Below are positions 9,044 through 11,900 of a stretch of DNA of 64,000 nucleotides, one piece after another (positions within the stretch are counted from its first letter, which is position 1; each line of letters begins with the position of its first letter). Position numbers and translations under genes: made by a program. Below the pieces are notes generated by a model. It was given only the letters and a program-made list of their open reading frames with translations, did not search any database and had not been told where the DNA came from. Origin of the DNA: Planctomycetota bacterium (GTDB lineage: Bacteria > Planctomycetota > Planctomycetia > Planctomycetales > Planctomycetaceae). The stretch is taken from NCBI GenBank assembly GCA_003388505.1, contig QQVO01000010.1:124001-188000 (forward strand). The letters run 5' to 3'.

Positions 9044-10546
9044 TCACACGCGAACATCGACCCACTTTCCCCGCGCAAAGCGCAGGAAGGCCAGCACGCC
9101 GCGGGCCAGCATGTCGATGCACATCGCGATCCAGGCGCCGTACAGCCCCCCCTCCAGCAGCACCCCGAACACGTACGCCCCCGGCACGCGGAGTCCGTAT
9201 GTGCTGAAGAGCGTGATGAGCATCGGAGTTCGCGTGTCGCCCGCGCCCCGGAGGCCGCCCACGTAGACGATGCCCATGATGAGGGGTATCTGAAACAGCG
9301 CCGCCAGCCGGAACGGAGGAGCGCCGACCGCGACCACGTCGACGCTGTTGTGCATGGCTGCGTAGATGAGCCGGGCTCCGACGAAGAACAACACAGTCAA
9401 CCCAACGCCCAGCAGGCCGCATTGGATCGCCGCCTCATGTCCCGCCCGGCGGGCGCGATGGACGTCGCCGGCCCCCAGCGACTGACCGATCATTGTCGCC
9501 GCCGCCGCGGCCCAGGCGACGGCCGGCAGGTAGGTGATCGCTTCGACGCGAATCCCCACGATGTGCGCCGCCATCGCCGTCTCGCCGAAGCTGCCGATGA
9601 TCGTCAGAAACACAAAATGCCCGCTCCACATGATCGACCCGTCCAGCGCGGACGGACCGCCGATCCGCAGAATGCGGCGGGCCGACGCGCCCCGCACGCG
9701 CATTTCTCCGATCTGGAGTTGCAGTCCGGACTTCCCCCGCGCCAGCACGGCCGCCATCGCGAGTCCGCCCGTACTGCGGGCGATGATCGTGCCGGTGACA
9801 ATGCCGTCGACGCCAAGCGGCGGGACCGGTCCCCATCCGTGAACGAGAATCGTTGAAGCGATCACGTTCAGCACGCTCACGGCGCCCAGAATCCACATCG
9901 GCGTCCGCATGTCGCCGCAGCCGCGCAGCGCCGCAGAGCCGACGAGACTGAGACTCGTCAACGCCAGCCCGATCGCATCCAGCCGGAGATAGCGGGTCGC
10001 AATCGCAACCGCCTCCGGGTCGCTCGCGACGGCCCGCGCCACATACGGCGCCAGCGGAAAGATGACGACCAGAAACCCGAGACCGGCGACCAGCGCGAGC
10101 GCGAACGAACGATTGAGAATCCGGTTCGCATCGTTGTCATCGCCCGCCCCCCGGGCCCGCGCCACGAGGGCCGTCGTCCCCGCCGCCACGAGCGAGAACA
10201 GCATCGTCGCCAGCCAACCGACGTAGGCCCCCACGCCCACGGCCACAGTCGCCGGTTCGCTCTGCTGGTTGCCCAGATGCCCCGCCAGCAACGTGTCGTA
10301 CAGTCCCACACAAAAACTGAGAAACTGCTCCAACAGCACCGGCATCGCAAGGACGAACAACGTCCGCCGCAGGTTGCCGGTCAGTAGAGCCGGGCGCTGC
10401 ACCGCGCGACCGGCCGTCGCCGGTTGCCCGGCAGGCCGCTCGTAGGAATCGGAAGGTGGCGAATCAGACAATGGGTCACCGGGCAGGCGGCTGAGGCGCG
10501 AAGAGGACGGACGAGTCGCGTCCGAACAGCGGGAATTCCACCGCAT
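9044..10546 (-). CDS. MATE family efflux transporter
   Basis: A 500-residue inner-membrane exporter with about 12 hydrophobic helices in two homologous halves, a Na+ or H+ driven drug/metabolite antiporter by family. Typical segments are LFVLAMPVLLEQFLSFCVGLYDTLLAGHLG in helix 1-2, ALRGCGDMRTPM at the end of half one, and GLRGAGDTRTPM at the matching place in half two. The first 60 residues are polar and Pro/Arg-rich, and no obvious ribosome site is seen, so the true start may be downstream of the one given. Substrate unknown. A family C repeat lies directly after the stop codon. Confidence 0.92.
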   Translation of the reverse strand: MRWNSRCSDATRPSSSRLSRLPGDPLSDSPPSDSYERPAGQPATAGRAVQRPALLTGNLRRTLFVLAMPVLLEQFLSFCVGLYDTLLAGHLGNQQSEPATVAVGVGAYVGWLATMLFSLVAAGTTALVARARGAGDDNDANRILNRSFALALVAGLGFLVVIFPLAPYVARAVASDPEAVAIATRYLRLDAIGLALTSLSLVGSAALRGCGDMRTPMWILGAVSVLNVIASTILVHGWGPVPPLGVDGIVTGTIIARSTGGLAMAAVLARGKSGLQLQIGEMRVRGASARRILRIGGPSALDGSIMWSGHFVFLTIIGSFGETAMAAHIVGIRVEAITYLPAVAWAAAAATMIGQSLGAGDVHRARRAGHEAAIQCGLLGVGLTVLFFVGARLIYAAMHNSVDVVAVGAPPFRLAALFQIPLIMGIVYVGGLRGAGDTRTPMLITLFSTYGLRVPGAYVFGVLLEGGLYGAWIAMCIDMLARGVLAFLRFARGKWVDVRV

Positions 10547-10670
10547 GCGCGGCGCAACAACACATGCGGGATCGAACCGGGCATCGTCGCGAGATCATGC
10601 ATTGCGGACAAGCCTCATGGGCTGTGGTTCAGGGCGAGCGGTGATTTCACTCCGGAAGACATGTTCAGAC

Positions 10671-11129
10671 GCCAGAACTTCGTTCTTCTACAACGCGACC
10701 GGGATCACACCGGCGATGGCGATGCGGCTGAGGGGGGTCGGCTCGCAGTATCTTTTCGCCATCAAGGACGCCGGCGGCGACTACTTCGACGGGTCGAAGA
10801 CCTACAAAGTGACCCTGCCGAAGAACATCCCCGCCGCGGCTTTCTGGTCCCTGACCCTGTATGACAATCAGACTCGCTCGATGCTCAAGACGCCGCAGAA
10901 GTATCCCCGCGCCGGCAGCCAGGGCTATCCCTCCCCAGCAGCCGAGGAAGCCAACGACGGCTCGACGACCGTCTGGTTTTCACCCGAGCAGCCTGACGGT
11001 GTGTCGCGCGGAAACTGGATTCAGACCGACCCGGATAAGGGCTGGGTCGTCCTCCTTCGGCTCTACAGCCCGCTCGATGCATTCTTCGACAAGTCTTGGC
11101 GGCCGACCGAGATTGAACTGGTCGAATAG
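10671..11129 (+). pseudogene. DUF1254/DUF1214 protein remnant (C-terminal domain only)
   Basis: From about 10671 the + frame reads FFYNATGITPAMAM, later KTYKVTLPKNIPAAAFWSLTLYDNQTRSML and WIQTDPDKGWVVLLRLYSPL, which is the DUF1214 domain that ends 450-500 residue DUF1254/DUF1214 proteins. Only about 150 residues remain. Upstream sequence in the same frame (10545-10670) has no family similarity and no DUF1254 domain is found nearby, so the gene has lost its front part. The remaining frame is intact to its stop. A short form translated from an internal start cannot be excluded. Confidence 0.75.
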
Positions 11130-11155
11130 TTTCCGCTCGCGGGCGAAACAGAAAA

Positions 11156-11187
11156 CGGGACGCCCGATTCGGTGGTCGGGCGTCCCG
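11156..11187 (-). terminator. Rho-independent terminator (minus strand)
   Basis: A perfect 12-base stem (CGGGACGCCCGA/TCGGGCGTCCCG) with an eight-base loop. Read on the minus strand it is followed by TTTTCTGTTT, so it ends the small minus-strand gene at 11213-11344; it may also stop the + strand remnant. Confidence 0.8.
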
Positions 11188-11212
11188 CGAACGTGGTGCT
11201 GTATGTCTGCGC

Positions 11213-11344
11213 TTAGAAGAAGCAGCGGCAGCAGCGGCAACAGCGGCAGCAGCGATGCCGTTCCGCCGCCTTCCGGGCGCGGTCGTTCGTGCGGAGCTTC
11301 TTCACTTCACGGACACTCTTCCTGGCTTGGGTCGCGACTTTCAT
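11213..11344 (-). CDS. 43-residue basic microprotein with Cys/Arg tail
   Basis: A small gene with complete expression signals: GGAGGAATTTCCC leads into ATG on the minus strand, and a perfect hairpin followed by a U-rich stretch lies 26 bases beyond the stop. The product starts MKVATQARKSVREVKKLRTN, continues as a basic helix rich in Lys/Arg/Ala, and ends HRCCRCCRCCRCFF: seven Cys in 12 residues, arranged as Arg-Cys-Cys repeats. There is no signal peptide, so it is expected in the cytoplasm. I do not recognise the family. The tail could bind metal or form disulfides, and the basic part could bind nucleic acid; both are inference. Its codons are ordinary for the window (CGC, TGC). Confidence 0.65.
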   Translation of the reverse strand: MKVATQARKSVREVKKLRTNDRARKAAERHRCCRCCRCCRCFF

Positions 11345-11900
11345 GGGAAATTCCTCCGGTCATAGAAAGTGGTGTGTGGACTTATCCGACGGCTCGACCA
11401 TCGAGCCGCCGGGTGATTCGTCCTGGTCAATCTCCACAGCGAGATCGCCGTCGTCTTGTTACCGGCAGATTTTGCAGGTTCCGTGCCGGAGTTCCGGTTA
11501 TGACGGCAGCCGGCCGCAAGGTATTGCCACGAAAGATGATGTGCCAACTGAGTGGCCGCCCGCGGATCCGGAAGCAAGGAATCGCATCCGCAACAGCCGT
11601 CGTCAGGATGACGACGAATTCGAGCGCACGGACGGGGCTCGCCAGACCTCGGGCGGGACGCGAGAGCGCTTTGCAGAATTGTGCTTGTGCAGAGGGGGTG
11701 GTTGGCTGGAGTTCGTCATCTCCGGCGAAGTGGGGGGTCGAGAGCCGAGAGTCAAGGGATTCGAATCGTTGACGCGTCGCTGGTGAGGTCTCTGGACTCT
11801 TGACTCTCAGCCCTCGGCTCTTTTTCGGTGATGCATCCGCGAATCAAGAACGGACCGTTCCCAGGACCACAGACCGAACTGCAGAGCGCTCCAGCCAGGT
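11345..11900. other. Intergenic region between microprotein and LecA-like gene
   Basis: About 550 bases. It holds a short palindrome GGCTCGA-CCA-TCGAGCC (11391-11407) upstream of the microprotein and a long imperfect inverted repeat (about 11742-11757 with 11798-11820, GAGCCGAGAGTCAAG against its complement) followed by TTTTTC on the + strand. Short frames here look random. Confidence 0.45.

Follow-up and report, generated by a model that had tools for sequence, protein, structure and literature searches.

The window analysed here, a stretch of 64,000 nucleotides on contig C6 of a Planctomycetota genome (G000; 6.78 Mb in 78 contigs), carries on its minus strand a small gene for a 43-residue peptide ending in Arg-Cys-Cys repeats, and the question it raises is what kind of product such a peptide represents. 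The first-pass annotation had described a complete small gene of no known family, and had offered metal binding, redox sensing or RNA binding as possible functions. The layout is indeed that of a complete gene, with GGAGG, the ATG at 11344, 43 codons and a TAA stop, followed by a hairpin; the T-rich sequence reported after the hairpin is present as well, and the stem comprises 13 pairs instead of the 12 first counted. The elements of the gene are as follows.

11213 to 11344, minus strand: gene for the putative precursor peptide, 43 amino acids (MKVATQARKSVREVKKLRTNDRARKAAERHRCCRCCRCCRCFF) and stop codon (translation, family matches, alignment, dN/dS)
11255 to 11344, minus strand: leader part, residues 1–30, with the conserved motif KxVREhxxLRT (alignment A1; predicted split between leader and core)
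11216 to 11254, minus strand: core part, residues 31–43, RCCRCCRCCRCFF (alignment A1)
11353 to 11357, minus strand: Shine-Dalgarno GGAGG (sequence)
11155 to 11188, minus strand: intrinsic-terminator-like hairpin, 13-bp stem and then the T-rich tail TTTCTGTTTC (terminator scan and folding)

Seven cysteines are packed inside residues 32–41 of the peptide in an R-C-C rhythm. No Sec signal peptide was recognised by eye, residues 1–30 being highly charged and free of any hydrophobic stretch. The terminator scan found one candidate at the ORF, where shuffled sequence gave 0.4 on average (sd 0.7), and the hairpin stretch folds with z = -3.0, with 2 of 200 shuffles equally good; a scan of the ORF region found no sigma-70-like promoter. 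A DUF1214 gene (10545–11129, plus strand) is convergent with the ORF, and the next sizeable minus-strand gene past it encodes a MatE transporter (10546–9044). We note that the DUF1214 domain (PF06742) accounts for residues 67–176 of 194 in the former protein and that the N-terminal part is unusual-looking; as a guess, this gene is possibly truncated or frameshifted.

The peptide belongs to a family, which we call RCC. A second copy, 70% identical, lies on contig C8 of the same genome, and 34 matches (E ≤ 0.001) are spread over 30 of the 170 genomes of the window's taxonomic family. The consensus of alignment A1 (26 rows) reads MTxxxxxxKKAVRELKxLRTxxRxKKAAERHRCCRCCRCCRC, with R12 and the stretch C33-R34-C35-C36-R37-C38 invariant in all 26 rows, and the length and final residues of the tail vary among the members (W, FF, GR or GGR). 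Within the tail, TGC is exchanged for TGT, and CGC, CGT, CGA and CGG for one another, while the R-C-C order is kept. All 246 usable pairs of RCC genes have dN below dS, with a median ratio of 0.23 (taken over pairs with dS > 0.05, the pairs not being independent), which indicates purifying selection; 189 of the 435 pairs were dropped for a dS of 0, not computable, or ≥2. The first-pass annotation had judged the repeat tail too regular for chance and had expected a real gene to show a conserved frame and a bias for synonymous changes in related genomes, and all three points are borne out. A chance ORF is ruled out by the family, the synonymous bias and the synteny described below.

The family was followed outward in several ways. 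Profile searches matched 8 of 392 genomes of the phylum (E ≤ 0.01) and 25 of 397 genomes of the class (E ≤ 0.001), several of these matches being weak or due to chance. The clearest additional match is in G515, whose RCC copy also stands before a gene of the oxidase family discussed below (MNIO). The weak matches in G733 and G006:C247 were not counted as members, with no precursor-like ORF seen by eye in the matched strand, nor were those in G041 and G119:C136, whose surrounding stretches contain no match to the MNIO or to its partner; weak matches in G194, G285, G408 and G529 were likewise left out of the member count. A pattern scan of GTDB gave one relative confirmed among the matches listed (at least 592), from a Planctomycetota MAG. 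None was confirmed among the matches listed for IMG/VR contigs (at least 600 pattern matches) or in 72,556 plasmid records, and a mobile or viral origin was set aside on this basis. No model in Pfam or NCBIfam matches the peptide, in agreement with its original description as an undescribed family.

The surroundings of the RCC genes were compared at 21 loci, drawn from 35 matches (34 in the family plus G515) and consisting of 20 loci of the same family (two in G000, with the three copies of G036 counted as one) and the G515 locus. Three clusters of ORFs are widespread downstream, all on the strand of the RCC gene. The first (c0) occurs in 16 of the 21 loci and is PF05114 MbnB_TglH_ChrH (184.2 bits for the G116 protein, cut-off 25), i.e., a multinuclear non-haem iron oxidase (MNIO) of the superfamily that includes the methanobactin and bufferin maturases. 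Its profile (alignment A3, without L063, L069 and L171) matches the solved MNIOs 3bww, TglH and MbnB, with the common blocks VH, SDH, EN, LDV.N, DSH and ERD, which we take to hold the iron ligands. The second cluster (c1), here called the partner, is found in 15 of 21 loci by ORF clustering and in all 16 MNIO-linked loci by tblastn. The third (c2), in 12 loci, is an ABC transmembrane region (PF13748) in which Pfam finds no ATPase domain. No other cluster of ORFs of at least 90 residues occurs in more than 4 of the 21 loci, and no protease gene was seen to recur. A ranthipeptide such as SCIFF, with six cysteines in 45 residues, has an adjacent radical SAM maturase; the RCC loci differ in that no radical SAM maturase of this type is among their recurrent neighbours.

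In the 16 linked loci the stop codon of the RCC gene and the start of the MNIO gene are 83–428 bp apart, and the MNIO and partner genes overlap by 4 bp in eight. Five stretches were folded, and the intergenic hairpins are strong at some linked loci and not above shuffles at others. The association also holds across genomes: partner matches occur in 44 of the 170 family genomes, namely in 28 of the 30 with an RCC gene versus 16 of the 140 without (Fisher p 1.6e-18). The RCC gene and the partner share a contig in 24 of the 30 genomes, the linkage in nine genomes beyond the neighbourhoods compared above being read from the contig positions of the two matches; they lie on separate contigs in four (G000, G003, G100 and G101). 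The partner was not found in G136, where only some 380 bp of contig follow the RCC gene, or in G135, whose RCC gene is diverged (RCDRCCRCSRCW).

The partner also occurs by itself. Of the 16 genomes with a partner but no RCC gene, 11 yielded no similar MNIO in the fetched stretch: L128 (G120), L129 (G182), L130 (G181), L131 (G011), L132 (G004), L134 (G119), L137 (G183), L138 (G179), L145 (G102), L146 (G180) and L147 (G017). In G120 an ABC transmembrane homologue follows the partner homologue. These MNIO-less homologues could be remnants, or partners that have taken on another function. In G130 (L140 1386–1764) the MNIO matches only query residues 16–78 and 227–290, as after an internal deletion; it adjoins a full-length partner match, and G130 has no RCC match at the threshold used.

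No convincing family match to the partner exists in Pfam or NCBIfam; 29 partners together match 16 Pfam families (E ≤ 1), none of which is DUF2063, and a profile search (alignment A2, without L171) found no relative among PDB sequences, so that the similarity is seen by fold comparison only. An AlphaFold2 model of the G000 partner (29 sequences, pLDDT 92.2) was compared with known structures. Foldseek places NGO1945 (3dee) first with an E-value of 0.021, and no structure reaches E ≤ 0.001. By VIA-align the model matches NGO1945 with Z 14.1 (184 residues, 3.3 A) and TglI with Z 13.8 (219 residues, 4.6 A); these two cover most of the model and stand well above the other rows, MbnC reaching Z 4.9. 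The C-terminal half alone matches the ribosomal oxygenase NO66 group (Z about 8–9) and the RRE domains of TbtB (Z 8.6), PbtF (6.2) and TbiB1 (6.0), where a Z near or under 8 may mean a common arrangement only; an RRE-like domain in this half is thus suggestive only. PME-type 2 partners are those that have no DUF2063 signature, an NGO1945/TglI-like fold with an RRE-type domain, and a gene placed after the MNIO (Antoine et al. 2025, PMC12452194), and the partner of the RCC clusters, as modelled, is one of them in this sense. An RRE-type partner, characteristic of MNIO RiPPs, is accordingly predicted from the model.

Upstream of some other MNIOs of this subfamily stand short ORFs that combine a related leader with a different Cys-rich end. 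The precursors of G622 (..KKAVRELKNLRTS..LAFCHGCHA) and G782 (..KKAIRELKNLRTS..LAFCHGCHA) lie about 1.3 kb and 0.9 kb upstream of their MNIOs, in each case with one gene between. The intervening genes (L121 7469–8683 in G622; L123 7413–8246 in G782) encode a protein with repeated GTWxxxxxERDGKPLPKE-like segments, the one in G622 having no Pfam match. The precursor of G105 reads MATTSKPQMSKSVREIMAF..(LERCGR)n, those of G675 and G568 read ..IVVKELTGLR..(CRRG/CNRG)n, i.e., with a (CxRG)n core, and that of G032 reads ..LKVTELAALKT..FCRGCRRCRSCRRCRRCRC. Within 1.5 kb upstream, no precursor was recognised by eye before the MNIOs of G709, G710, G714 and G130 or before the unlinked MNIOs of G000, G003, G100 and G101; only doubtful ORFs precede the G112 MNIO and the second MNIO of G622, and the contig of G016 ends before the region concerned. 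Judged from these translations, the leader is what the precursors have in common, and the core can be exchanged, often for a short repeat with Arg and Cys. A constant leader followed by an exchangeable core is the usual architecture of RiPP precursors. A conserved leader (KKxVREL..LRT) and a variable core are thus encoded together with an MNIO in the relatives, and apart from it at the window locus.

Where, then, are the enzymes for the peptide of the window? The genome contains one close MNIO, on contig C2 (L086:8013–8852), which is 69% identical to the G116 MNIO and is followed by the partner (L086:9001–9756) and the ABC protein. The MNIO tree pairs it with the RCC-linked MNIO of G036 as sisters (support 97/94). 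We note that the genome also has a separate cluster at G000:C9:46354–47127 (L087:6315–8761, minus strand), with a 169-residue precursor, an MNIO of 309 residues and a protein of 306 residues; the precursor has a twin-arginine/lipoprotein-like start and repeated Cys-Gly motifs. By eye we take this cluster to be bufferin-2-like and its 306-residue protein to resemble DUF2063. Two elements upstream of the window ORF link it to the C2 operon.

11436 to 11462, minus strand: candidate ECF-sigma-like promoter GTAACA-N15-CGCTGT (pattern search, at the level of sequence)
11456 to 11476, minus strand: 21-bp element TGCAAAATCTGCCGGTAACAA, overlapping the -35-like box and agreeing at 19 of 21 positions with its counterpart upstream of the unlinked MNIO operon

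The 21-bp element (TGCAAAWTCTGCCKGTAACAA) starts 132 bp before the ATG of the window ORF and 124 bp before the C2 MNIO. It was found by comparing three pairs of upstream regions, and its two exact matches are there by construction; elsewhere in the genome the closest match differs at 3 positions, and a reversed control gives 2 matches at up to 3 mismatches. When the upstream region of the window ORF was compared with 1,497 random stretches of the genome, the best 21-mer identity was 17 (three perfect scores, taken as self-overlaps, were set aside), whereas the C2 operon reaches 19. The element includes GTAAC, and at both places a spacer of 16 nt separates this from CGCTG. The pattern GTAACA-N15-CGCTSW has only two matches in the 6.78 Mb, before the window ORF and before the C2 operon; since the reversed control also has two matches in the genome (elsewhere or at unstated places), the location is telling and the count is not.

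Among 35 upstream regions, of which 30 belong to RCC genes (some of them almost the same) and five to MNIOs, GTAAC-N16-CG occurs in six, including positions -111 to -124 before all three RCC copies of G036 and the MNIO of G714. The stricter GTAAC-N15..17-CG[CT][TA] occurs in five of the 35, whereas 300 shuffles gave 0.47 on average and 3 at most. The motif is absent upstream of the C8 copy, of most linked loci, and of the unlinked MNIOs of G003, G100 and G101, and when the upstream region of the C8 paralogue is compared with that of the window ORF or of the C2 operon, no similarity exceeds that of shuffles (40 each). The three RCC genes of G036 are in tandem (L056 4000–5050) upstream of the MNIO, each with its own GTAAC-N16-CG site. 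A candidate promoter of ECF type (GTAAC, 16–17 nt, and a CG-containing -10) is therefore present before both the window ORF and the C2 operon, as far as sequence can tell, and the argument from a shared promoter draws on few sites. In Caulobacter, the ECF factor sigma-F uses GTAACC-N16-CGAA before DUF2282-DUF692-DUF2063-DoxX operons that respond to cadmium and chromate, with a spacer one base longer than that of the window promoter, according to the part of PMC3511200 consulted; DUF2282, DUF692, DUF2063 and DoxX are the domains given for bufferin clusters in the main text of PMC12452194.

We conclude, with high confidence, that the ORF encodes a RiPP precursor of an MNIO-type pathway, whose enzymes lie on another contig and appear to have an ECF-like promoter motif in common with it. 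This assignment follows from the neighbourhood seen elsewhere, with its MNIO, its partner and the related leaders that carry other Cys-rich tails, and it very probably makes VREVKKLRT the leader and (RCC)3RC the core of the window peptide. The first-pass annotation is thereby confirmed in its observation and partly supported in its interpretation: metal binding stands as a possibility, and the context places the ORF as an MNIO-type RiPP precursor, not as a metal-binding, redox or RNA-binding protein acting on its own. None of the results points to RNA binding.

Alternative readings differ in how much of this evidence they accommodate. It is conceivable, though unlikely, that the system makes a methanobactin- or bufferin-type copper peptide in the narrow sense, by the same chemistry and with only the precursor sequence new. 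The enzyme superfamily and the order of precursor, MNIO and partner are the same, and the promoter resembles the GTAACC-N16-CGAA of sigma-F before the Caulobacter DUF2282-DUF692-DUF2063 operons (PMC3511200, consulted in part). However, the G000 MNIO scores far under the equivalog cut-offs for BufB (156.5 of 310 bits), HvfB (142.5 of 360) and MbnB (TIGR04159; 46.2 of 325), DUF2063 is absent from the Pfam matches of the 29 partners, no stretch resembling a signal peptide is seen by eye, and the repeats are Arg-Cys, not Lys-Cys or EGKCG. It is a good deal harder to maintain that the peptide is an unmodified, metallothionein-like metal-binding protein that is associated with the MNIO through shared stress regulation only. 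Seven cysteines in ten residues would bind soft metals without modification, and the gene lies off the contig of the enzymes in four of 30 genomes and has no partner match in G135; against this, it is on the contig of the partner in 24 of the 30, and a conserved leader, which in related form precedes other Cys cores before the same enzymes, is needless for a plain chelator. That the ORF is a leader peptide whose run of Cys codons, followed by a terminator-like hairpin, attenuates a downstream gene is scarcely credible because of the gene arrangement, the next sizeable gene on the strand (MatE, 10546–9044) lying beyond the opposite-strand DUF1214 gene (10545–11129), and the non-Cys half of the amino-acid sequence is conserved too.

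For an MNIO-type RiPP precursor, the typical order in the relatives (precursor, PF05114 MNIO, partner with RRE-like domain, PF13748 ABC transmembrane protein) suggests a sequence of events. The RRE-like domain of the partner would bind the leader of the precursor; the MNIO may oxidise cysteines in the (RCC)n core, on the model of thiooxazole or oxazolone-thioamide formation; and the membrane protein of ABC type would move or export the product. The product would likely serve to bind a soft metal, for instance Cu(I), in response to metal or oxidative stress signalled through an ECF sigma factor. Because the window ORF is not adjacent to these enzymes, its product would be processed in trans by those encoded on C2. 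The products that MNIOs are known to form on cysteine (Table 1 of PMC12452194) are oxazolone-thioamide, thiooxazole, 3-thiaglutamate and a macrocycle. Test substrates in which the cysteine is followed by a charged residue were left unprocessed by the fontiphorin enzyme (PMC13097082, in the part consulted). An Arg-Cys-Cys-Arg core would therefore call for an enzyme specialised in another way, and the low scores obtained with the five matched NCBIfam MNIO equivalogs agree with this. More tentatively, and as something we can suggest but not lean on, the RCC peptides may form a new planctomycete RiPP class, in which leader-type precursors have pure Arg-Cys repeat cores and a distinct MNIO subfamily converts every unit, giving a cationic poly-ligand metal-binding peptide of undescribed chemistry, and in which the precursors are in some lineages scattered and tied to their enzymes by a dedicated ECF promoter instead of linkage.

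With these results, a small gene left unnamed by the family libraries searched can be placed in a functional class, and the expanding MNIO field gains a group with Arg-Cys repeats. The results also suggest that a precursor gene can be remote from the genes of its maturases, in which case searching just the ORF before each MNIO would overlook it; unlinked precursors might then be located through a promoter motif shared with the enzymes. For the question of how an MNIO chooses among adjacent cysteines, the repeat core is a test substrate of unusual simplicity.

Among known systems, methanobactin (MbnA-MbnB-MbnC) has a short leader-type precursor without a signal peptide, an MNIO with a partner, and cysteines in the core. 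The RCC system has all of these features in common with it. Unlike methanobactin, its precursor has several R-C-C repeats, its partner is nearer to NGO1945/TglI than to MbnC (Z 14 versus 4.9), and its MNIO (that of G000) reaches 46.2 bits against the MbnB cut-off of 325. The bufferins (Buf1/Buf2; BufA-BufB-BufC) resemble the RCC clusters in having a Cys-rich precursor, an MNIO and an NGO1945-like partner in the same order, and can be likened to them in the setting of metal stress, with the related Caulobacter ECF promoter GTAACC-N16-CGAA (consulted part of PMC3511200). In contrast to bufferins, the RCC precursor is a 43-residue Arg-Cys repeat peptide without a Sec-signal-like N-terminus, the partner has no DUF2063, the MNIO is under the BufB cut-off (156.5 versus 310), and an ABC transmembrane protein is present.

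The captophorins/oxazolins (FonA and HvfA, with EGKCG or Lys-Cys repeats) likewise combine a basic residue with cysteine in repeats, and an MNIO with an RRE partner, whereas the RCC system has Arg for Lys, vicinal Cys pairs and no DUF2063 (PME1) partner, by comparison with the part of PMC13097082 consulted. The pearlin system TglA-TglH-TglI is alike in the fold of the partner (TglI, Z 13.8) and in the match of the MNIO profile to TglH; TglA is a scaffold that receives an added C-terminal Cys (PMC9016710, in the part consulted), whereas the cysteines of the RCC peptides are encoded as repeats. Antoine et al. 2025 (PMC12452194) report adjamnio families, which are putative precursors with Cys motifs before MNIO genes; in the main text some of them have no signal peptide and some have PME-type 2 partners, as in the RCC system. 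The sections of it that were compared describe no short Arg-Cys-Cys repeat peptide, and words beginning with RCC or planctomycet are absent from the main text. Searches of titles and abstracts found, among the papers listed, none describing Arg-Cys repeat precursors. From these searches, and with the families of Antoine et al. compared through the main text, we call the RCC peptides a new precursor family within the known MNIO-RiPPs.
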